This document shows, piece after piece, positions 3,536 to 40,174 of a DNA stretch of 40,663 nucleotides. Positions within the stretch are counted from its first letter, which is position 1. Every line of letters begins with the position of its first letter. The notes beneath the pieces were generated by a model. That model was not told the origin of the DNA, ran no database searches, and worked only from the letters and a program-made list of their open reading frames with translations. The stretch spans positions 1 through 40,663 of the IMG/VR virus record IMGVR_UViG_3300044844_001104; one strand, given 5' to 3'. This DNA comes from a virus. The position numbers were made by a program, and so were the translations under genes.

Positions 3536-4279
3536 ATGTCTGACCCGACCTCCCCTGTTCAGGCCGTTCAGGCCAGCCCCGACCCCGACGCCCCGTTGCC
3601 CTCGCTCTTTGGCCAGGGCGCAAGCTTCGCAAGCTTCGCTCCCCCCGTCGGCGCTTGGCAGTGCGCCCTCTGCCGCGAGGCCATCCCCACCCCAGGCATC
3701 TGCTCGCCTTGCGGTGAGCGTGGACCACGCAAGGCGCACGAGCGCAAGATGCAGGTCGCCCGCGAGACCGTGCCGGCGCACTTCGCATGGGCTGCGTTCG
3801 GCAGCCGCGAGCTCGCGCAACGCTGCAGCGTGACCGCCATCGATGCCGTCCAGGCGCTTTTCGGTCGACGTCTCCCCACCGGCCTCGTGCTGCGTGGGCC
3901 AAGCGGGGCGGGCAAGACGTCGCTCGCCTGCGCTGTCCTCGCTCGCATCCACTCGGTGGCCTGGGACTCACCTGCCCCTGTCGTGGACCGAGCAGCCCGT
4001 GCCTACTACGTCAGCGTCCCTGAGCTGCGCTCCCAGCTCCTGGAGTGGCGCCGTGGGACCGAAGCTCCCCTGCTGCTGCGTCGCGCCCGAGAGGCCACGG
4101 TGCTCGTGCTCGATGACCTCGACAACGTGGCCCGCACCGAGATCGCAGACCTCATGTCGTCACGTCACGAGCACGACCGCACGACGATCCTGACCACTTG
4201 GCTCACTCGCGAAGAATGCGCGGATGCATGGGGCGAGAGGCTCACACGCAGGGCCTACGAGACGGTGATCGAATGCTGA
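3536..4279 (+). CDS. DnaC-like helicase loader ATPase
   Basis: A 247-aa AAA+ protein. A zinc-ribbon-like cluster lies at Cys43-x2-Cys46 and Cys56-x2-Cys59, as in many phage DnaC/IstB-type loaders. Walker A is GPSGAGKTS at 121-129 and Walker B is VLVLDDLD at 189-196. The protein should load the host replicative helicase at the phage origin, in partnership with the initiator encoded 3 nt upstream. The first 40 residues are Pro/Ala-rich and probably disordered. It is the last gene of the early operon before the control region at 4280-4436. Confidence 0.85.
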   Translation: MSDPTSPVQAVQASPDPDAPLPSLFGQGASFASFAPPVGAWQCALCREAIPTPGICSPCGERGPRKAHERKMQVARETVPAHFAWAAFGSRELAQRCSVTAIDAVQALFGRRLPTGLVLRGPSGAGKTSLACAVLARIHSVAWDSPAPVVDRAARAYYVSVPELRSQLLEWRRGTEAPLLLRRAREATVLVLDDLDNVARTEIADLMSSRHEHDRTTILTTWLTREECADAWGERLTRRAYETVIEC

Positions 4280-4436: not shown

Positions 4437-4973
4437 ATGACGCAGCTCAACCCCAAGCTCATTAAGCGGATCCACGAGCTGAAAGCGGAGGGCCTAAGCT
4501 CTCGCGGGATAGAAGCGGCTCTGGCCAAAGACGGAATCGTCTACAGCCACACGAGCATTGCGACGGTGATCCGAACGACGATGCGGCCGCCTGAGAAGTC
4601 GGCAAAGCCGAAGGACCCCCCGAAGGGGAAGCGCGCTGATCCTGCGGTCATGGCAGAGGTGCTGGGAGACGTAGAGGACGACGCGCCGATCGATGTCGTG
4701 AAGGGGCGCCTGGCATCGGTTCGGGAAATCATCACCAAGCTGCGGCCCGAGGTGGAGGCGGGGGACTACGACGCAGGCAAATGGGGGACGCTCGTGAAAC
4801 TCGAGGCTGACCTAGCAAAACGCATCGTAGCGCTGACGCCAACGGCGGCCCCTGACCCGGCGGCGGACCCCTTCAACATCGGGGCGCGTCAACTGATCGT
4901 CGAGACGGTACGGGCCAACGTGCACGCGATCCTGAAGAGGCACGGAATCGATCCGGACGCAGCGAACGGATGA
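4437..4973 (+). CDS. terS: Small terminase subunit (putative)
   Basis: A 178-aa protein immediately before the large terminase, overlapping it by ATGA at 4970-4973. Residues 1-48 carry a helix-turn-helix of the small-terminase/transposase type (HELKAEGLSSRGIEAALAKD, then a recognition helix HTSIATVIRTT). A charged linker and a helical C-terminal oligomerisation region follow. It should recognise the packaging site and regulate the large subunit. It is the first gene after the control region at 4280-4436. Identification rests on HTH plus position; sequence similarity alone is weak. Confidence 0.7.
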   Translation: MTQLNPKLIKRIHELKAEGLSSRGIEAALAKDGIVYSHTSIATVIRTTMRPPEKSAKPKDPPKGKRADPAVMAEVLGDVEDDAPIDVVKGRLASVREIITKLRPEVEAGDYDAGKWGTLVKLEADLAKRIVALTPTAAPDPAADPFNIGARQLIVETVRANVHAILKRHGIDPDAANG

Positions 4974-6601
4974 AGTCCACCTACACAGTCAACGACTTCA
5001 AGCGTCGGTGGGCCGCGATCCGCGCCGAGTGCGATAAGCTGGTTGGGCCAAGCCTGATAGACCAGATAGCGGAGGCAGAACGGCTCGAGCCGGGCAGCGT
5101 CGAGCGCATCCTGGACCAGCTAGGGCCGGCCCGAACAATGACCCTCGCCTACATCCGCGAGGCGTGGAACCGGCCGAAGCAGCGGGCAATTGTGGAGAAC
5201 GATGCGGCGTCTCGTTTGGTCTACATCGGAGGCCGGGGCGCGGGAAAGACTGAGGTAGGCGGCGGATGGGCAGGGAGGCGCATCGAACGCGGGGCGCGAG
5301 AGATCGTGTTCTGTGGCCCAACAAAGGGAGACATCGAAAACTACATGATCGGCGGCCGCAAGCGCCGGTGTGATGGCTTGCTCGGGTCCAGCTTCATCGA
5401 CCAGTTGCACCCATGGTCCAAGGTTGAGTTTCGGATGAAGGACGACCTCCCTCATATCCTCGTATCCGACCGAGCGCGCGTGTTCATTCACTCAGCGATC
5501 TTGCCTGAGTTTCGCGGTCCAAACGTTGACACGGTGTGGATCGATGAGCCGATCAAGATGCGGTATCCCGAGGCTCTGATCTCCAACTTGGAGCTAGCCA
5601 CTCGCGCGATCGGCGCTGTCGAGCCGCAGACGTTGTTCACGACCTCGCCCAAGCGCTTGCGCTTTCTGCGCGATCTCGTGATGCGCCCAAACACCTTCGT
5701 GGTTCATTCCTTCACGTGGGAGAACTTGGGCAATGTCAGCCCACGTTGGTACGCCGAGCAGGTAGAGCGTCTTCACGGTACGCAGCAAGGGCGCGAAGAG
5801 ATAGACGGCGAACTCGAGACCGACGACGGAAGTGAGATGTTCTCTCTGAGTGTGATCGATGGCCAGCGCCGGCCCATGCCTACGACGTTCACGCGAATCG
5901 GGGTCGCTGTGGACCCCAGCGGTAATGACAAGAAACGGAGCGACCTCGCCGGAATTGTCGCGGCTGGTCTCGTCGGCAATATCCACACAGGCCACGGCTA
6001 CATGATTGAGGATGCCAGCGAAAAACTGTCGTGGGACGCCTGGGGCCACAAGACGGTGGTGCTAGCTGAAGAACGCGGGGCGAGCTTCATTCTATGCGAG
6101 ACCAACAAGTTTTCCGGAGGGGTTTCCGCCAACATACGTACGGCGGCGGCGGCTCGCGGATATGTGGCTACGACGAGGCCAGGCACAAAACATCAGATTG
6201 ACCTGGTTCAAGGGTCGCGTCGGATCGAGTTGCTCGAGGTGCACTCGAAGGACGACAAGATTACGCGCGCGGGTCCTGTCTCCACGCTGTACCAGCGCGG
6301 GCGCTTCCATCACGTGGGCCATTGGTTCGAGCTTGAAGACGAGATGAGTGAGTTTAGCGTTGGCTCACTCGCGCACGGGGCATCGCCCAATCGTATGGAC
6401 GCCCTCGTGCACTGCGTCACCGAGCTCTTCGAACTGAATCGAGCTCCGGAGGAGAACTTCGAAGAAGTTAACCGGGGCTACGCTGGGCTCGTGCAGCAGA
6501 TGGGAGGCGGAGAACCGAAGCATTCACCGGCACCGTCTCAGACCCCAAGCTCGGGCTCGTTGGCGCACCTGTTTGGGATGTACCCTCGCCGTCCGGTGTG
6601 A
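4970..6601 (+). CDS. terL: Large terminase subunit (packaging ATPase/nuclease)
   Basis: A 543-aa motor protein. The Walker A-like loop is GGRGAGKT at 87-94 and Walker B is DTVWIDE at 187-193 with the catalytic Glu193. The nuclease domain begins with VAVDPSG (313-319; Asp315 as first metal ligand), and a late NRMDALVH segment is typical of the terminase nuclease end. It translocates DNA into proheads and cuts concatemers. The last 134 nt of the gene overlap, tail to tail, with the minus-strand portal gene, so its C-terminus (a Pro/Ser-rich tail) is encoded opposite the portal C-terminus. Confidence 0.92.
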   Translation: MKSTYTVNDFKRRWAAIRAECDKLVGPSLIDQIAEAERLEPGSVERILDQLGPARTMTLAYIREAWNRPKQRAIVENDAASRLVYIGGRGAGKTEVGGGWAGRRIERGAREIVFCGPTKGDIENYMIGGRKRRCDGLLGSSFIDQLHPWSKVEFRMKDDLPHILVSDRARVFIHSAILPEFRGPNVDTVWIDEPIKMRYPEALISNLELATRAIGAVEPQTLFTTSPKRLRFLRDLVMRPNTFVVHSFTWENLGNVSPRWYAEQVERLHGTQQGREEIDGELETDDGSEMFSLSVIDGQRRPMPTTFTRIGVAVDPSGNDKKRSDLAGIVAAGLVGNIHTGHGYMIEDASEKLSWDAWGHKTVVLAEERGASFILCETNKFSGGVSANIRTAAAARGYVATTRPGTKHQIDLVQGSRRIELLEVHSKDDKITRAGPVSTLYQRGRFHHVGHWFELEDEMSEFSVGSLAHGASPNRMDALVHCVTELFELNRAPEENFEEVNRGYAGLVQQMGGGEPKHSPAPSQTPSSGSLAHLFGMYPRRPV

Positions 6602-31183: not shown

Positions 31184-31366
31184 ATGGATATCGAAGACGC
31201 CCCCACCGAGCTCGACCTTCACCCGTGGCACCTGACGTCACCCAGCCGTGCGGACCTTGCGCCGACCACTCAGGACGACCTCAGCGAGCTCCACCGCTCG
31301 CGAACTAGCCCGAGGGTCCCCCGCTGCAACAAGTCGAAGGACCTCTTCGGCAAGCTCAACAGCTGA
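31184..31366 (+). CDS. Doubtful small ORF opposite the integrase 3' end (60 aa)
   Basis: ATG 31184 is preceded by AAGGAA at 6-nt spacing and codes for an acidic start (DIEDAPTELDLHPWHL). Its last 129 nt lie antisense to the integrase tail, where composition becomes Arg/Ser-rich. It could be a real gene read from the late direction, or chance. Low confidence. Confidence 0.25.
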   Translation: MDIEDAPTELDLHPWHLTSPSRADLAPTTQDDLSELHRSRTSPRVPRCNKSKDLFGKLNS

Positions 31367-32698
31367 TCTCACCTGGGACTCACCGCGCAGCGCTCTAAGT
31401 GCCTGCGGATACTCGGTTGGCGAACCACTTCCTAAACCGAAGGTCACAAGTTCGATCCTTGTCGGGGGCGCCGCAGAATCGCTGGGGTTTTCGTCGGGCC
31501 CCTGGAAGAGCGTGGTGAGTTCGGCGGTGAGATGGAGGCTGGCCGCTGCTCGCACGGTGACCCCTCCGTCGAGGTGTGCGTAGCGCTCGGTGGTCGTGAT
31601 CGACTCGTGGTCCAACTGAACCTGGACTTCCTCTTTGGACCACGCCTTGCCCCACCAGCCCTGAACCAAGCTCGTGCCGCAGGTGTGTCTGAGGTCATGG
31701 AAGCGCACGTGCTTGCCGTCCCGCCGCGCCTCTGCGGTGAGGCCGAGCTCTTGGAGCCACCTCTGCCAGTGCAGCGGGTCGCCGATGCGTCTGCAGCCGC
31801 GCACGGTGGGCCATAGCCACGGCTCCGCGGGCCTGACCTCGTTGGCTCGCCTAGCTCGAGCTGCGTTCGCTGCCTGCTCCTCGGCGCGCAGTGGCAGCCA
31901 ACACCGCACGGCCTGAGCTGCGAGCGGCAGCAGGGCCACGGTGCGAGGCCTGCCGTTCTTGGTCTTGCGGAAAGTGACGGTCCCAAGCTCGAGCGAGACG
32001 TCGCTCACCCTCACGTGCCACAACTCAATCAGGCGGCCGCCGGTCCCGAGGGCGAAGGCCAGCATCAGGCGCTCTCGCAGCGGGATCGACTCGGCGGTCA
32101 GCAGCCGCGTCTGTTCCTCGGGCGTTAGGTATGTCCAGGTTTTGTGAGACCGGGCCCGCTTGCGAATCGAGGTTGGCAGACGCACCTCGCGGGCAGGGTT
32201 CGAGCGGATAAGTCCCCGCTCGAGCGCATCCTCGAGGACGACGCGGACGAGGTTGATGGCGTTGGTCGCGGTCTGCGGGGAGATCAAGCGCTTGGCTCGT
32301 GCCGCGGCAACGTGGGCACCGTGGCCCGCTCCTGGCTGCGGGCGCCGTTTGGCAAGCTCGTCTACCCAGGCCACGACATCCGCGCGGGTGATGGTCACGA
32401 GGGCCAGGCCACCGAGCGAGGACGTCTGGACGTGCGCCCGCCAAACGGAGCGATAGGAACGCGCTGCTCGCTGGCCTTCCAGCTCGCGGCGGTCGATCAC
32501 CTGCTCGCCCCACGTGCCCAGGGAGAGCCCACCCTCTGCGGGGTCGCGCGCAAGCTGGGCGAGGGCGGCCGCCAGTAGGCGCTCGGCTTCCTCTCGCGTC
32601 GCACAAGGATCGAGGCGAGCGGCCTTCCGCCCTGGCAAACGAGGCACGAAACGACCGTCCCGCGTCGTCTCGATGGTTCCTGTTCCGTGTCTTCTCAT
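31238..32698 (-). CDS. int: Tyrosine integrase with attP inside its coding sequence
   Basis: A 486-aa phage integrase. The N-terminus (GTGTIETTRDGRFVPRLPG) is an arm-binding domain, about 60-170 a core-binding domain. The catalytic residues are Arg222 (GTGGRL), Lys247 (TKNGR), His334/Arg337 (HDLRH), His364 (LDHES) and Tyr373 (TERYAHL). ATG 32698 is chosen because it overlaps the stop of the small upstream gene (ATGA). The attP core (31429-31472) encodes residues about 409-424, so integration would replace the last 60-odd residues, all beyond the active-site Tyr. The phage tail contains a duplicated AVELAE-x-VL motif. Confidence 0.92.
   Translation of the reverse strand: MRRHGTGTIETTRDGRFVPRLPGRKAARLDPCATREEAERLLAAALAQLARDPAEGGLSLGTWGEQVIDRRELEGQRAARSYRSVWRAHVQTSSLGGLALVTITRADVVAWVDELAKRRPQPGAGHGAHVAAARAKRLISPQTATNAINLVRVVLEDALERGLIRSNPAREVRLPTSIRKRARSHKTWTYLTPEEQTRLLTAESIPLRERLMLAFALGTGGRLIELWHVRVSDVSLELGTVTFRKTKNGRPRTVALLPLAAQAVRCWLPLRAEEQAANAARARRANEVRPAEPWLWPTVRGCRRIGDPLHWQRWLQELGLTAEARRDGKHVRFHDLRHTCGTSLVQGWWGKAWSKEEVQVQLDHESITTTERYAHLDGGVTVRAAASLHLTAELTTLFQGPDENPSDSAAPPTRIELVTFGLGSGSPTEYPQALRALRGESQVRSAVELAEEVLRLVAAGDPRASSRAVELAEVVLSGRRKVRTAG
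31429..31472 (+). other. attP core: 3' half of a tRNA-Arg (anticodon CCU) gene
   Basis: On the plus strand the sequence runs from an anticodon loop TTCCTAA (31429-31435) through ACCGA, variable loop, T-arm ACAAG-TTCGATC-CTTGT (31446-31462), acceptor strand CGGGGGC (31463-31469), discriminator G and CC. The matching 5' half (D-arm, anticodon 5' stem) is absent upstream. This is what an attP identical to the 3' end of a host tRNA looks like. It lies inside the integrase gene. Confidence 0.88.
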
Positions 32699-32970
32699 TT
32701 GCCGCCCATAGCCGGGTCGCGAACCCACATTCTCACGTGCCACTCGCAACCAACCATCATCGCTATCCCGTTCGCTCGTCCAACGTGTGTAGCTCGCGCG
32801 CGACTTGGACAGAACGGGCATCGTCGGCGCATGCGCGGACTCGCTGTCATGTCTCGCTTATCCAGCAGTGCGTTGGCGTCTTTGATTCCAACATCAACAA
32901 CGGCCCGCTTTGGAAATCGAACAACGTTGAACAGGTGAGCGCAATGAGGCCGTTCACTCGCCGCTCGCAT
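32695..32970 (-). CDS. Small gene upstream of integrase, unknown (up to 91 aa)
   Basis: The stop (32697-32695) overlaps the integrase ATG, which suggests coupling. The C-terminal half has CPFC and a later Cys (RRRCPFCPSRARATHVGR), a little like zinc-binding restriction-alleviation (Lar) peptides but incomplete. The start is uncertain: ATG 32970, ATG 32850 or ATG 32832; none has a strong ribosome site. It might be an excision factor by position, but nothing in the sequence shows this. Confidence 0.35.
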   Translation of the reverse strand: MRAASERPHCAHLFNVVRFPKRAVVDVGIKDANALLDKRDMTASPRMRRRCPFCPSRARATHVGRANGIAMMVGCEWHVRMWVRDPAMGGK

Positions 32971-35079: not shown

Positions 35080-36131
35080 GACTCGTCCCCCGGCTCACGC
35101 ATGGCGGGCGCTTGCTCTTGTGCCTCTGCAACAGGCTCGATCTCAGCGTCGGGCACCACGACACGCTCGGGCGCTGCTGTGGGTGCCGTTGCTGCCGTGG
35201 CTTGCGCCTTCGGCTTGCGGCGCTCTTCCAGCTTCGAGCGCAACCTCGCAGCCGCTTCGCTCTTGGGCTTCGCTGTTGCTTCTCCCGTCTGCCGATGGGG
35301 TGAAGCCTCAAGGATCTCCGACCAGCGCTCGCCGTCCCGCACGGCTGCGTAAACTCCGCGGAGTTCGCTCCGGTCGGCGGGGGTGAGGGCATCGAGCGGC
35401 TTGCCTGCAAGGTACTCGACGAGGTCGTGGGGCTTGATCCCCAGCTCGGCGAATCGGTCGATCAAGCGCTTGCGCTCGCCGTCCGGGTCGGCGGCGTCGG
35501 CGTTGTCGAGCGTCGTCTGAATCTGCTGGGCGGCCTCGTCGAGCAGGTCGCCCGGAATGAGGCGAAGGCCCAAGGTGCGCAAGGTTTTCGACACCAAGGC
35601 GGCCTCCTTCATCCTGACCTCGTCGTCGGTCGCTGGGAGCAGGTACACGAGGTCGCCGTAGCTGTTGCGACGCTGGGAGAGGGGAACCTCGCCCTCGCGC
35701 AGTTGCTTGCGCTCCTTCGTCTTCTCTATCGAGACCTCCTGGCTCCAGCTGGCTCCGCTCTCGTAGTCGATGACGCTGCAGCGGATGATTCGTTTTTCGG
35801 CCGAGTCGTAGAGGGTCTCGGTGCTGCAGTCGGCGTGCCGCATGCAACGGATCGCCGCCTCAACGAAGCGGATGGACCACCCGGTGATCTTGTCTCGCCC
35901 TACCGAGCGCTCCCAGCGTGCAAGGCCGGCGAACGTGGGTCGCTTGCATTCTTTGAGGAGCGCGAGCCTCACCGCGTCGATGTCGCGAGGCCTTTGCATC
36001 GCCATCACAAAGCGCGCCTGAATCAGCGCTTGCTGGCGCTGCCCTTGCGTCTCGCCCTGCGTCTCGTGTCGCACCATTGCCTGCGAGCCCATTGCGTCCC
36101 GCGTCATCGCCAATTCTGAACCCATGCTCAT
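35076..36131 (-). CDS. Putative single-strand annealing recombinase (351 aa)
   Basis: Coupled to the YqaJ-type exonuclease by ATGA (36128-36131), the usual exonuclease/annealase pairing. The core, residues about 35-200 (RFVMAMQRPRDIDAVRLALL, GWSIRFVEAAIRCMRHADC, ASWSQEVSIEKTKERKQL, KTLRTLGLRLIPGDLLDEAA), matches a phage family found beside such nucleases. The C-terminus is a long Lys/Ala/Pro-rich linker with an acidic end. It would anneal single strands left by the exonuclease. No catalytic motif proves the call. Confidence 0.6.
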   Translation of the reverse strand: MSMGSELAMTRDAMGSQAMVRHETQGETQGQRQQALIQARFVMAMQRPRDIDAVRLALLKECKRPTFAGLARWERSVGRDKITGWSIRFVEAAIRCMRHADCSTETLYDSAEKRIIRCSVIDYESGASWSQEVSIEKTKERKQLREGEVPLSQRRNSYGDLVYLLPATDDEVRMKEAALVSKTLRTLGLRLIPGDLLDEAAQQIQTTLDNADAADPDGERKRLIDRFAELGIKPHDLVEYLAGKPLDALTPADRSELRGVYAAVRDGERWSEILEASPHRQTGEATAKPKSEAAARLRSKLEERRKPKAQATAATAPTAAPERVVVPDAEIEPVAEAQEQAPAMREPGDES

Positions 36132-37096
36132 GATCGTCGCCCTCTCTTCTTCGTGGTTCTCTGCGTTGGCGGGTAGAACCGCCCCAATCTGTATTTCTCG
36201 CCGCGGTGCTGCTCGATGACGTCGGCGGGGATGGTTCCGCCCGCGAGCTGCTCTGCAACGGCGTGCCAGTTCACGCGGCCCGAAACGCTCGGCGCGATGA
36301 ACTTCCCCCAGCCGCCCTCGATGCCGTACTCGTTGCCGACCAGCTCAATCAGCCGCAGCGTCGTTGCCTCCGCGATCTGCTTGGCCTCCTTCTCGTGCTC
36401 GTGGGCCTGCTGGTAGTCGGCGATGGCCTCGCGGACCTCGGCCGAGTCGAGCTCCACGCACTTCGTCGCCTCGCTCCCCGGGTAGCGGATCCGCAGGTAG
36501 CGGCGGCGCTCTTCCAAGTCGGTCGGAGGGGGCGGCGTGTTGGTCTCGATGAACTGCGCCCAAAACTCCTCGACCGTCTCGAGGATCGCTGACTCGATTT
36601 CCGGGTCGCGCTCGATCGTGACGATACGCAGGTCGGTTCCTCCGAGCAGGGCGACGAGGTCCCAGCGGTCCCAGCCCATCACCGCCATGTTCTGGTGGCA
36701 CTGCATGGCGTAGTAGTCGGGGATTGAGTCGTTCTCCCAGTGGTGGAGCATGCGAGCACCCACCACTTTCACCTCGACGCCTCGCCGCTCGGAGTGAACC
36801 AACCCGTCGGGCGAGGCCAGGACGTGGACGCAGTCCGGATGCCGCAGCGTGGTTTGAGGGGCCTCGACCTCGCGCCCCGTTCGCCGTCGGTACAGGTCGA
36901 GCACGGCGGCTTCCAGCGCGCTGCCGACCTCGGACTGTAGCGACTCGCTCGACTCGATGAGCGGGGCACGCTTGGGCGTTGGCTTGCGCAGCCACACGTC
37001 GAGCGGACCCTGATAGGGGGATAGCTCAAGCAGCGCGGCAATCTCGGACGCTCCGACGCCAGTCGCGCGGATCTCCTTCTGCTCTGCGGTCAGCAT
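36128..37096 (-). CDS. YqaJ-type viral recombination exonuclease
   Basis: A 322-aa protein; ATG 37096 overlaps the upstream stop by seven bases. GVGASEIAALLELSPYQGPLDVW (13-35, in two parts) is the typical YqaJ start. The lambda-exonuclease-like active site shows Glu62, Asp97 (ASPDGLV) and Glu108-x-Lys110 (GVEVKVV), followed by YAMQCHQNMAVMGWDRWDLVA. It resects double-strand ends 5'-3' to give tails for the annealing protein. C-terminal 100 residues are helical and basic at the end. Confidence 0.85.
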   Translation of the reverse strand: MLTAEQKEIRATGVGASEIAALLELSPYQGPLDVWLRKPTPKRAPLIESSESLQSEVGSALEAAVLDLYRRRTGREVEAPQTTLRHPDCVHVLASPDGLVHSERRGVEVKVVGARMLHHWENDSIPDYYAMQCHQNMAVMGWDRWDLVALLGGTDLRIVTIERDPEIESAILETVEEFWAQFIETNTPPPPTDLEERRRYLRIRYPGSEATKCVELDSAEVREAIADYQQAHEHEKEAKQIAEATTLRLIELVGNEYGIEGGWGKFIAPSVSGRVNWHAVAEQLAGGTIPADVIEQHRGEKYRLGRFYPPTQRTTKKRGRRS

Positions 37097-37686
37097 GGAA
37101 CACACAACCCTTCCGCGTTGAAGTCGTGCGCGTATTCGCGCGGTGGAACGCACGCCCCGAGCACGGCGACCGGTTGGCCTCCTCGAAGCCAGACGGCCGA
37201 ATGCCGCGCGTAGTCGCGCAGCCTTTCCGGCACGGGCTGGCCGTCTGCGTATCCAGGTAGAACCAGGTGGGCGCTGCGAGCGATGGCGAGTCCAGCATCA
37301 CGGCCTACGGTGGAGGCGACGGCGTCGAAGGTCTCCGGCAGGAACCAGACGCAGCCAGCAGGCCCGGTGGCCATGTGCTCGTGCAGGCATTGCACCTTGC
37401 GGTGCTCGAACTGCATCGAAGACCCCAGCACGAAGCGGTGCTCACACGCGAGCATTCGCTGCATGCGCAGGGCCTGGCTCGTGCTGTGCTCGAACTTCGG
37501 TACGCGCCCGGTGGCAATCAGGCTGATGACGTCATCGGGCCACACGCGGTACGAGACCCACTCACGCACAGCCCAGACCGTTGTCGAAGGCCCCGGCAGG
37601 TCGACGATGACGAGTTGCGGCGGGTCGCACTGCGAAAGGAACAACTCAAGCTCCATCGCAGGTGATAGCGGCGGCTTCGGCGACAT
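37090..37686 (-). CDS. Protein of the leftward operon, unknown (198 aa)
   Basis: ATG 37686 overlaps the upstream stop (TGATG). An alpha/beta protein with an early LVIVDLPGPSTTVWAVREW and the segment HRKVQCLHEHMATGPAGCVWFLP. The FEHRKVQCLHEHM motif has several potential metal ligands (His, Cys). It ends in GLCVPC. No family recognised; expressed with the recombination genes. Confidence 0.6.
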   Translation of the reverse strand: MSPKPPLSPAMELELFLSQCDPPQLVIVDLPGPSTTVWAVREWVSYRVWPDDVISLIATGRVPKFEHSTSQALRMQRMLACEHRFVLGSSMQFEHRKVQCLHEHMATGPAGCVWFLPETFDAVASTVGRDAGLAIARSAHLVLPGYADGQPVPERLRDYARHSAVWLRGGQPVAVLGACVPPREYAHDFNAEGLCVPC

Positions 37687-38012
37687 CACTGCACCTGCCG
37701 CAAGCGGGCGCGCATCACGCTCTTCTCGAGGGCGCGAATCAAACGCATTAGGCCAGCGCTCGGCGGCTCGGCTCCGATGGTGGATTGGCAGTCGGTGCAG
37801 TTGCGGAGCGCGACGCGACCACCGAGTCCGTCGTACTGAACGGCGAACACCGGCCCAACTCGCGGGTGACGACAGACGCGATTGGCGGCGACGCGAGCTA
37901 GCAGCTCGTCGGTCAGTGCCTGGCGTGCGTGCGTGCTGAGCTGGGCAGCCTCACCCGCAGACACCTCGTGATAGGGCAGTAGGCCGCGCGACGTGGGGAA
38001 GAGGCAGCTCAC
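37686..38012 (-). CDS. Small putative zinc-binding protein (108 aa)
   Basis: Starts at GTG 38012, overlapping the stop of the leaderless zinc-finger gene (GTGA). After a helical first half, a C-x-H ... C-x2-C arrangement appears (VCRHPRVG, then RNCTDCQSTIG), consistent with a small zinc site. The C-terminal helix is basic (RALEKSVMRARLRQV). Possibly a DNA- or RNA-binding early protein. Confidence 0.55.
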   Translation of the reverse strand: MSCLFPTSRGLLPYHEVSAGEAAQLSTHARQALTDELLARVAANRVCRHPRVGPVFAVQYDGLGGRVALRNCTDCQSTIGAEPPSAGLMRLIRALEKSVMRARLRQVQ

Positions 38013-38179
38013 GAGGCCACCGCCTTCTTGGCGCAAGCCGCGCAGGTGCACGTCTTGCCGTGCACGTACCGGATGTGCTGGTGGCAGTCAGCGCACGCGT
38101 AGAGCGAGACGTCGACGCCTGGGTCGGTGGAGAGCTGTTGGAGGACGACTTGGACTTCGTGGGAGCAACGGGTGAGCAT
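38009..38179 (-). CDS. First gene of leftward operon: zinc-finger peptide, probably leaderless (56 aa)
   Basis: Starts at ATG 38179-38177, 8 nt after the predicted -10, so the message would begin at or next to the start codon. Two Cys/His clusters (YACADCHQH and CTCAACAKK) suggest one zinc ribbon. It overlaps the next gene by GTGA. By position it is the first product of the leftward early promoter, so a regulatory role is plausible. Confidence 0.65.
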   Translation of the reverse strand: MLTRCSHEVQVVLQQLSTDPGVDVSLYACADCHQHIRYVHGKTCTCAACAKKAVAS

Positions 38180-38223
38180 GCTCCAATAGGTAATTCACCA
38201 AACGGAGCATGTCAAGCGGAGCA
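38179..38223 (-). promoter_or_regulatory. Leftward early promoter with operator half-sites
   Basis: On the minus strand TTGACA (38215-38210), 17 nt, TACCTA (38192-38187), then ATG 8 nt on (38179). TGCTCC/GGAGCA half-sites lie at 38218-38223, 38204-38209 and overlapping the start codon. The 37 bp 38181-38217 match the minus-strand copy at the rightward promoter in 31 positions. The -35 is good; the -10 is weak but conserved between the two copies. Confidence 0.7.
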
Positions 38224-38303: not shown

Positions 38304-38906
38304 ATGCTCGACGAAGACACGATTGCCGATCTGGATGGTGACGCGCGGTTACTCAGGCGAACCAGCGGCCTCGACGATGCAGCCGTGCCGTCACCGATCG
38401 CTTTGGCGCTGGCTCTTACTGGCCACCCACCGCTGCTCTGCACGGCACTACGGCAAGAGGCTTGCCTCGCCAGGATAGGGAACAGCTGGCGTGTCGTTGT
38501 GCGCCGTAGCGTTCCCGCAGCCCGCAAGACGTGGCTCGTCGGTCACGAGTGCGCGGAGCTGCACTTGAAAGCGTGCGGCTACGCTGGGGAGGACATCGAG
38601 GCTCGGGCGGATGCGCTTGGTGCGGCACTCGTCTTGCCTCGCGCAACGCTCTGCGCTTTGACTCGCGCCCACGGTCATCGCGTGCACACGATCGCGAAGC
38701 TCACCCGGCTCACTCAGTCGCTCGTGTTGCTTCGGATCGGCGAGGTGGAGCGCCGTCCCGTTGCCTTGATGCGACGAGGCATTGCGACCGTTCGAGGAGA
38801 GCCTTTCGGCTGGCCTCGCAAGCTGTCCATGGCCGTAGCGGGCACTCACCCGCTACGCATCACAGACGAGCCAAGCCGCTTCGGCTTGATGGCTACAGCG
38901 CCTTGA
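38304..38906 (+). CDS. ImmA/IrrE-like putative metallopeptidase with variant motif
   Basis: A 200-aa protein. Residues 76-112 follow the IrrE/ImmA layout: WLVGHECAELHL, then EDIEARADALGAALVLP. In place of HExxH the motif is His81-Glu82-x2-Glu85-x-His87, so the second ligand is changed; Glu99 could be the third. ImmA proteins cut or activate repressors to induce prophages. It lies opposite the leftward operon and converges, with 14 bp overlap, on the lipoprotein gene, rather than sharing an operon with the repressor. Ribosome site poor; start moderately sure. Confidence 0.65.
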   Translation: MLDEDTIADLDGDARLLRRTSGLDDAAVPSPIALALALTGHPPLLCTALRQEACLARIGNSWRVVVRRSVPAARKTWLVGHECAELHLKACGYAGEDIEARADALGAALVLPRATLCALTRAHGHRVHTIAKLTRLTQSLVLLRIGEVERRPVALMRRGIATVRGEPFGWPRKLSMAVAGTHPLRITDEPSRFGLMATAP

Positions 38907-39270
38907 CGGCTGCTTCGATCTTCTCACCGGCAGGCCGAGGCATATCCGAGTTGCACTGAACGAAGATCCGCTTGCCCTTGTTTGCGTACCGGTGCGGACC
39001 CGCAAGCGCTGCCGCAGCGTCAAAGCCTTTGATGGTGCCCTCGAGATCGGCGTCGGTCTTGTGCGCTAGGACCTGGCACTTTTTACCCTTCGGCTCCTCA
39101 ATGTCGAAGTCGTACTTCTCCCAAGCTGCTGCACCAAGACCGCCGGGCGAATCCTTCGTGCAGTTGCTCCCGAGTCCCTGGCCCGTGAGTTTCTCGCAGG
39201 CTGTTTTTGCGTCGAGGTCTGAACCGCAACCGACCACCGACACCACCAGAACCATCAACCAAGCCTTCAT
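38893..39270 (-). CDS. Lipoprotein co-expressed with the repressor (125 aa)
   Basis: A type II signal peptide (MKAWLMVLVVSVVGC) with lipobox VVGC and Cys15 as the lipid site. The mature part has Cys residues (TACEKL, SNCTKD, KKCQVL, VQCNSD) that may form two disulphides, and an alpha/beta look. It is coupled to the repressor by ATGA (39267-39270), so it is likely made in the lysogen. Candidates are superinfection exclusion or other lysogenic conversion. The D-A-x-x-A-C-x-K-L style is common in Myxococcota lipoproteins. Confidence 0.75.
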   Translation of the reverse strand: MKAWLMVLVVSVVGCGSDLDAKTACEKLTGQGLGSNCTKDSPGGLGAAAWEKYDFDIEEPKGKKCQVLAHKTDADLEGTIKGFDAAAALAGPHRYANKGKRIFVQCNSDMPRPAGEKIEAAVKAL

Positions 39271-39761
39271 GCGTCCTCCCCGAAGTCTTCCTCTGTTGCG
39301 TCACGTGTGGCCATCCGCTTCCACGCGTCCACGCGTCGTATCGTGTCGAGGATGGCCTGTCGACACTCGGCCTCGGTGGGGCCGTCACCCTTGTGCACGC
39401 CCAGCCGATCGGTAGCGATGTCGAGCATCGCCTCAGTCACAACCCCAGCCGCAAGGGCATCCCGAGCGTGAATGTTGAACGCGCCATACCTTTGGGCGTA
39501 GCGCTTCCACCTTCCGGGAGTCTCGCGCACTTGGGCTTGGCTTGTCGGAGTGAAGGCATCCTCGGCGTCTGACGCGGTAAGTCCAAGCACGCGTGCCAGT
39601 CTGGTTTGATGCTTCGCTGGGGCACGCAGCCCAGTGATCCACCGCCCGATCGTGGCGATGCTTACGCCGACTTCAGCCGCGAGCTCTTTGCGAGTCATGC
39701 CTTTGGCGACCATCGCGCGCTCGATCGCGATCCCTGCGCCCTGCGGGAGCTTTGCCTTCAC
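39267..39761 (-). CDS. XRE-family repressor (CI-like), putative
   Basis: A 164-aa protein with an N-terminal helix-turn-helix: VAKGMTRKELAAEVGVSIAT then IGRWITGLRAPAKHQ (about 18-52). The C-terminal half is helical and has no LexA-type Ala-Gly/Ser-Lys protease motif visible, so induction should not be by self-cleavage. It reads leftward from GTG 39761 (ATG 39713 is an alternative), opposite the Cro-like gene, and is coupled to a lipoprotein gene. It is the best candidate to bind the TGCTCC/GGAGCA operators. Confidence 0.75.
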   Translation of the reverse strand: MKAKLPQGAGIAIERAMVAKGMTRKELAAEVGVSIATIGRWITGLRAPAKHQTRLARVLGLTASDAEDAFTPTSQAQVRETPGRWKRYAQRYGAFNIHARDALAAGVVTEAMLDIATDRLGVHKGDGPTEAECRQAILDTIRRVDAWKRMATRDATEEDFGEDA

Positions 39762-39799
39762 AGGCTGACTTTCGCGCGCGGGTGGGCTCCTGTCTTTGC

Positions 39800-39838
39800 T
39801 TGACTTGCTCCACTTGGAGCATTACCAATTGGAGGATG
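39800..39838 (+). promoter_or_regulatory. Rightward early promoter with internal palindromic operator
   Basis: TTGACT (39800-39805), 17 nt, TACCAA (39823-39828), then ATG at 39836, so the message is probably leaderless. The perfect palindrome TGCTCC-ACTT-GGAGCA (39806-39821) fills the spacer; a bound repressor would block polymerase. CCAATTGG (39825-39832) overlaps the -10. The region matches the leftward promoter near 38200 in 31 of 37 bases. Confidence 0.75.
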
Positions 39839-40063
39839 GTGATTAAGACAGGGCGTGCCCAACTCGCCGAATGGTTCGTGCGCAGCAACAGGTCGCAGGC
39901 CTCGCTGGCCCGGGAACTCGACACGAGCACTACGAACATCCAGCGATGGTTGCACGGTCACCGCGTCCCTCGCATTGATGTGCTCGCTCGTATTGAGCGA
40001 ATAACGGGGATCCCGTCGTCGGCCTGGGCTGCTGACGATCGAGCGAACGCGAAGGCCTCCTAG
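39836..40063 (+). CDS. Cro-like HTH regulator, probably leaderless (75 aa)
   Basis: Start ATG 39836, directly at the predicted transcription start; GGAG sits one base upstream and is too close to work as a ribosome site. The HTH is RSNRSQASLARELDTSTTNI then QRWLHGHRVPR, with a short C-terminal helix (DVLARIERITGI). It is divergent from the repressor and heads the early rightward operon, as Cro does in lambdoid phages. A GTG at 39839 is a possible second start. Confidence 0.75.
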   Translation: MVIKTGRAQLAEWFVRSNRSQASLARELDTSTTNIQRWLHGHRVPRIDVLARIERITGIPSSAWAADDRANAKAS

Positions 40064-40174
40064 GTGCTTGAGCTCTACGGGCTCGCCGCTCTGATTCTGC
40101 TCGTGCTCGCCATGTGGGCCGCGAGCGCTTGGCAGTCGTTTTGGGTCAACCGTTTTGACGAGGAGGATCGATAG
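40064..40174 (+). CDS. Small single-span membrane protein (36 aa)
   Basis: GTG 40064 follows the Cro-like stop immediately. The 36 residues have one hydrophobic helix (LYGLAALILLVLAMWAASAW) and an acidic tail ending in DEEDR. The reading frame ends at TAG 40172-40174 just before the next ATG. An early membrane peptide of unknown role. Confidence 0.5.
   Translation: MLELYGLAALILLVLAMWAASAWQSFWVNRFDEEDR

Follow-up and report, generated by a model that had tools for sequence, protein, structure and literature searches.

Two distant stretches of this phage genome, each running into the start codon of an early gene, resemble each other closely. This raises the question of whether one promoter/operator module opens both lytic arms, and whether the messages that begin there carry leaders at all. 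The window, by which we mean the whole stretch of DNA analysed, is one IMG/VR virus record of 40,663 nt (IMGVR_UViG_3300044844_001104; 64% G+C). As it carries an integrase (31238-32821; phrog_1, 7e-47) and a YqaJ/RecE-type exonuclease, it was considered to be a temperate phage.

The immunity region and its repeated block

From left to right, the region is arranged as follows, with further rightward genes beyond the Cro-like gene:

36128-37153, minus strand: YqaJ/RecE-like exonuclease of the leftward operon (PF09588, 4e-23; phrog_434, 1.4e-61)
38009-38179, minus strand: first leftward gene, 56 aa, Cys-rich and zinc-ribbon-like (CxxC ... CxCxxC), with no family match above the cut-off
38177-38217, minus strand: left early promoter/operator block (pL-like), with -35 TTGACA at 38215-38210, -10 TACCTA at 38192-38187 and ATG at 38179-38177
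38304-38906, plus strand: IrrE/ImmA-like (M78) peptidase-like protein (PF06114, E 7.4e-4, 19.7 bits, below the cut-off of 22)
38893-39270, minus strand: predicted lipoprotein directly downstream of the repressor (signal peptide and ...VVGCGSD lipobox, read by eye)
39267-39761, minus strand: XRE/CI-type repressor, 164 aa, between the two promoters and divergent from cro (PF01381, 1e-08; PF07022, 2.3e-05)
39798-39838, plus strand: right early promoter/operator block (pR-like), with -35 TTGACT at 39800-39805, -10 TACCAA at 39823-39828 and ATG at 39836-39838
39836-40063, plus strand: Cro-like HTH regulator, 75 aa (PF01381, 1.3e-07)

The blocks of this integrase-bearing phage therefore have the repressor on one side and, on the other, the opening genes of the two divergent arms. 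The repressor and Cro genes diverge at 39761/39836 and both products match PF01381, which bears out an earlier assignment, made in a preliminary description of this DNA, of a Cro-like regulator to the rightward side.

Several neighbouring genes merit comment. The product of 38304-38906 has GHECAELHL instead of HExxH, with a EARADALGAALVLP motif downstream; it is a possible antirepressor, perhaps a protease or a degenerate one. The predicted lipoprotein gene adjoins the prophage repressor downstream both in the window (38893-39270) and in another viral record, IMGVR_UViG_3300020045_006750 (L006; 3913-4371), and this position suggests a superinfection-exclusion lipoprotein expressed in the lysogen. 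The repressor is read from a GTG at 39761, ahead of which inspection of the sequence found neither a convincing -10 nor a Shine-Dalgarno site, and its start codon or promoter may have been misjudged. A frame for a 36-aa membrane peptide (40064-40174) lies directly behind the cro stop, and the gene that follows it (40175) has a strong Shine-Dalgarno site, GGAGGA.

In a pairwise comparison, minus-strand 38217-38181 and plus-strand 39798-39834 are identical at 31/37 positions, exactly as the preliminary description had stated, and the next-best non-overlapping 37-mer in the whole 40.7-kb window matches the block at only 22/37. Extended to the end of the two ATGs, the match is 34/41 (83%), compared with a best score of 30 among 400 random 41-mers from the region. 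Read toward its gene, the left block is TTGACA-TGCTCCGTTTGGTGAAT-TACCTA-TTGGAGC-ATG (minus strand, 38215 to 38177) and the right block is TTGACT-TGCTCCACTTGGAGCAT-TACCAA-TTGGAGG-ATG (plus strand, 39800 to 39838). The layout proposed earlier, with TTGAC(A/T), a 17-nt spacer, TACC(A/T)A and then the ATG, thus holds at both sites, with 7 nt between the -10 and the ATG. The pattern TTGACW-N17-TACCWA-N7-ATG occurs at exactly these two sites in the record, and a reversed control pattern at none.

As promoters, the blocks are uneven. Their -35 hexamers match TTGACA at 6/6 (TTGACA) and 5/6 (TTGACT) positions and are correctly spaced at 17 nt, but the -10 hexamers TACCTA and TACCAA match TATAAT at only 2/6 and 3/6, a comparison to be read with the caveat that the sigma-70 consensus may not be that of the host. 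Both -10 hexamers are without the -7 T, and a strict sigma-70 promoter scan reported nothing at either block. These weak -10s may be constrained by the operator or dependent on activation.

Operators and start codons

Each block contains two adjacent imperfect 16-bp operators with centres 15 bp apart and a half-site of about TGCTCCAA:

38194-38209, minus strand: left operator O1, TGCTCCGTTTGGTGAA, between -35 and -10 (half-site matrix)
38179-38194, minus strand: left operator O2, ATTACCTATTGGAGCA, over the -10 and the first base of the ATG (half-site matrix)
39806-39821, plus strand: right operator O1, TGCTCCACTTGGAGCA, with 7/8 dyad positions
39821-39836, plus strand: right operator O2, ATTACCAATTGGAGGA, over the -10 and the first base of the ATG (half-site matrix)

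Split into half-sites, the right operators read TGCTCCAC/TTGGAGCA and ATTACCAA/TTGGAGGA, and the left operators TGCTCCGT/TTGGTGAA and ATTACCTA/TTGGAGCA. Right O1 is the only strong dyad of the four; a score of 7/8 or better is reached at 33 of the 40,647 centres in the window. The other three score 3-4/8, so the case for operators rests on repetition across the blocks. In a matrix scan, the four operators scored 19-22 bits and the next site 13.5, although the matrix was trained on these four and their rank is not independent. Further operator-like matches, at 5581 and 7528/7543, fall within coding sequence and were put down to chance. The repressor and Cro are 31% identical over 49 aa of the helix-turn-helix (BLASTP E 3e-05) and share S...I-x-R-W-x-x-G-x-R-x-P at the recognition helix, a kinship that fits binding of both proteins to similar half-sites.

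The half-site TTGGAGCA/TGCTCC is repeated within each block, and the GGAG ahead of each ATG is one copy of it. This GGAG lies 0-1 nt from both ATGs, too close for use as a Shine-Dalgarno site, and neither first gene has a usable one upstream. Among the other genes of this phage in which a ribosome site can be recognised, the distance between site and start is mostly 3-9 nt (as at 683, 11536, 13836, 39270 and 40175). We therefore agree with the preliminary description that the GGAG is an operator half-site rather than a ribosome site. As it forms the inner half-site of the second operator, the operator, the -10, the presumed +1 and the start codon overlap; the compact module described earlier can be recognised in both blocks, where O2 spans from the -10 to the first base of the ATG.

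The position of the -10 bears on where transcription begins. The 100 bp before the Cro ATG contain a single TA step, that of TACCAA at -13, which leaves no second candidate for a TA-type -10 in that stretch; the left site likewise has a TA at -13. With 7 nt between the -10 and the ATG, core promoter spacing would put the +1 on or beside the start codon at both blocks: a start 7-8 nt past the -10 would coincide with the A of the ATG or with the base preceding it.

We propose that the leftward and rightward lytic promoters are copies of one promoter/operator module, at which polymerase would start at the A of the ATG or one base earlier. Neither early mRNA would then have a leader, and ribosomes would recognise the 5' AUG with no Shine-Dalgarno site. 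Each promoter has two imperfect dyads, one over the spacer and one over the -10-to-ATG segment, and a dimer of the XRE repressor, probably joined in this by Cro, would occupy them, thereby blocking polymerase on both arms simultaneously. With the operator, -10, start site and start codon all packed into one stretch of 35-40 bp, the departure of the -10 from consensus and the odd position of the GGAG would both be accounted for by selection on the operator. Judging from sequence, we give a probability of roughly 0.7 to the reading that the two blocks are the lambda-type pL/pR pair of a temperate phage, controlled by one repressor, with both arms probably leaderless. On the points that sequence can address, the preliminary interpretation is borne out. 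The more specific claim, that leaderless messages open both lytic arms and come from a single duplicated module with its operator over the start codon, is put forward tentatively, its chances being somewhat short of even.

Leaderless geometry in other viruses and alternative readings

We also searched for relatives of the phage and for the same geometry elsewhere. The preliminary description had suggested looking for the block in related genomes, an approach that did not succeed, as the exact block is absent from viral_contigs. Queries of viral_contigs with the repressor, RecE, the phrog_3657 protein and the terminase gave no relative except one record reached through RecE (L005); queries of genome_contigs with RecE and a two-row Cro alignment gave none, and INPHARED phages gave only remote CI matches. 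The viral_contigs and genome_contigs searches yielded no close relative able to show base-by-base conservation of the block.

A looser pattern (TTGACN17-19TANNNWN6-8ATG) matched seven times in six whole viral records. Five of these matches are ahead of real genes, namely the two in the window and those at the Cro genes of L003 and its near-copy L004 and at a YdaS/P22-Cro gene of L005; the others, in the L005 and L007 records, were discarded, as their frames are only 21 and 27 aa. In L003 and L004, the layout at the distant Cro relative (34% identity) is TTGACA-17-TATATT-7-ATG. The YdaS/P22-Cro-type gene of L005, a record not reached via Cro, has TTGACA-18-TATCCT-7-ATG and faces a CI-type repressor with a peptidase S24 domain. 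The L003/L004 and L005 Cro genes keep the leaderless geometry with operators different from those of the window. In L007, TATAGAAT is found 6-8 nt ahead of the Cro ATG, but with a poor -35. The same record has TAGCAAAAGATACAT ahead of cro and again 0.8 kb leftward (4071 and 4881), possibly another shared operator. L006, which also has a distant Cro relative, shows no TA-type -10 near the Cro ATG and lacks the geometry, so leaderless starts are not universal among these Cro relatives.

For a broader view, 120 viral stretches (L008-L127, from viral_contigs) were surveyed for TTGACA-N17-TATAAT followed by an ATG within 3-13 nt. Spacings of 6 and 7 nt stood out, with 33 and 28 ATGs compared with 5-14 at other spacings, and the peak was sharper for frames of at least 50 aa (24 and 14 compared with 1-5). 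The base before the ATG is mostly T, as expected if the A of the ATG is the +1. The sample consists mainly of AT-rich, marine-looking phage genes, not Cro genes; by eye, the ATGs at 6-7 nt mostly belong to real-looking genes, many of them marine T4-like. This excess appears to reflect widespread leaderless transcripts. Together, the recurrence at other Cro genes and the survey peak point to leaderless geometry being used by phages in general.

Three other readings of the blocks were considered. The most serious, though still unlikely, is that the operators are shared but the promoters are ordinary, with transcription starting further upstream and a leader supplying a ribosome site or a later start codon. 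The weak -10 hexamers are in keeping with this, as are the further TA steps at -72 and -62 on the left arm and, in pR, a GTG directly behind the ATG. However, such a start must contend with TACCAA being the sole TA step in the 100 bp ahead of cro, with a GGAG standing 0-1 nt from each ATG while the left gene shows no other start that would be suitably spaced, and with the recurrence of TTGAC-17/18-TA-7-ATG, with better -10s, at the Cro genes of L003 and L005. The weak hexamers could also mean that the blocks need activation and are bound by a phage activator, or by Cro only, instead of by the prophage repressor. Two XRE proteins are encoded and the sequence cannot say which of them binds, but the operators span from the spacer to the +1, where binding normally blocks polymerase, and the sites flank the repressor gene, as they do in lambda; we consider this improbable.

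We rejected, as having very little chance of being right, the idea of a phase switch in which recombination between the two copies would invert the 1.6-kb repressor-lipoprotein-peptidase segment. The copies are indeed inverted and 1,580 nt apart, but they are 83% identical rather than exact, what they conserve is promoter hexamers and operator half-sites at a constant distance from the two start codons, and no second recombinase was seen beside them.

If the pL/pR reading with leaderless arms is true, the same bases encode repressor binding and start-codon choice, and control through a 5' leader (such as nut-type antitermination) is excluded on both arms. The switch would be compact, with promoter, operator and start codon forming one element that is used twice. 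Since unrelated Cro genes show the geometry as well and the survey peaks at 6-7 nt, leaderless early transcripts may be more frequent in phages than annotations allow for, which would affect start-codon calling and promoter prediction.

Comparison with known systems

In lambda, pL/OL and pR/OR respond to CI and Cro through one operator sequence common to two divergent early promoters. The window likewise has divergent HTH repressor and Cro genes and the same operator sequence at both early promoters (four 16-bp sites). As in lambda, the divergent early promoters flank the repressor gene, the operator they share overlaps the core promoter, and the rightward genes begin with Cro, with recombination genes on the leftward side. 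The arrangement differs in the number and spacing of the operators: a promoter of the window has two, with 15 bp from centre to centre, and one of lambda has three, spaced by about 23-24 bp. In lambda, leaders precede both cro and N (that of N with a nut site), and the PRM cI message alone is leaderless.

The shared-operator design also occurs in L006, which has the same order of left gene, lipoprotein, repressor and Cro. A 48-nt block ahead of its cro recurs inverted at the left arm (3750-3797, minus strand, and 4950-4997, plus strand; 32/48 identical, compared with 30 for the best of 400 random blocks). As its operator is of a different sequence, GTTGCA...TGCAAC, with one dyad per promoter, the two-arm design is not peculiar to the phage studied here.

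Leaderless regulator transcripts have been described as well, and a study of phage AR9 comments that leaderless transcripts are frequent in phages (PMC5312081). In the telomere phage PY54, RACE places the 5' ends of the cI and cro mRNAs at the AUG (PMC4488713); its Cro binds a single operator (OR3) beside cI, and its leaderless pair is cI and cro, whereas the apparent pair in the window is cro and the first left-arm gene. In CP-933P, a cryptic prophage of E. coli O157:H7, the part of the report that we cite describes a phage-type divergent region of repressor and Cro (PaaR2/YdaS) with a leaderless PaaR2 regulator transcript, identified by RACE and N-terminal sequencing (PMC8630535). There, the leaderless gene is the repressor and not the lytic arms, and that part describes no shared left-arm block (PMC8630535). 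Within our partial coverage of the literature, we found no described case of a leaderless left arm, or of two leaderless lytic arms from one duplicated module. The apparent novelty is that the leaderless pair would be the two lytic arms, both from one duplicated module. As leaderless cI/cro messages (PY54; PMC4488713) and two-arm operators (lambda) are already known, the mechanism is less unusual than first supposed, and the twist is neat rather than unprecedented.
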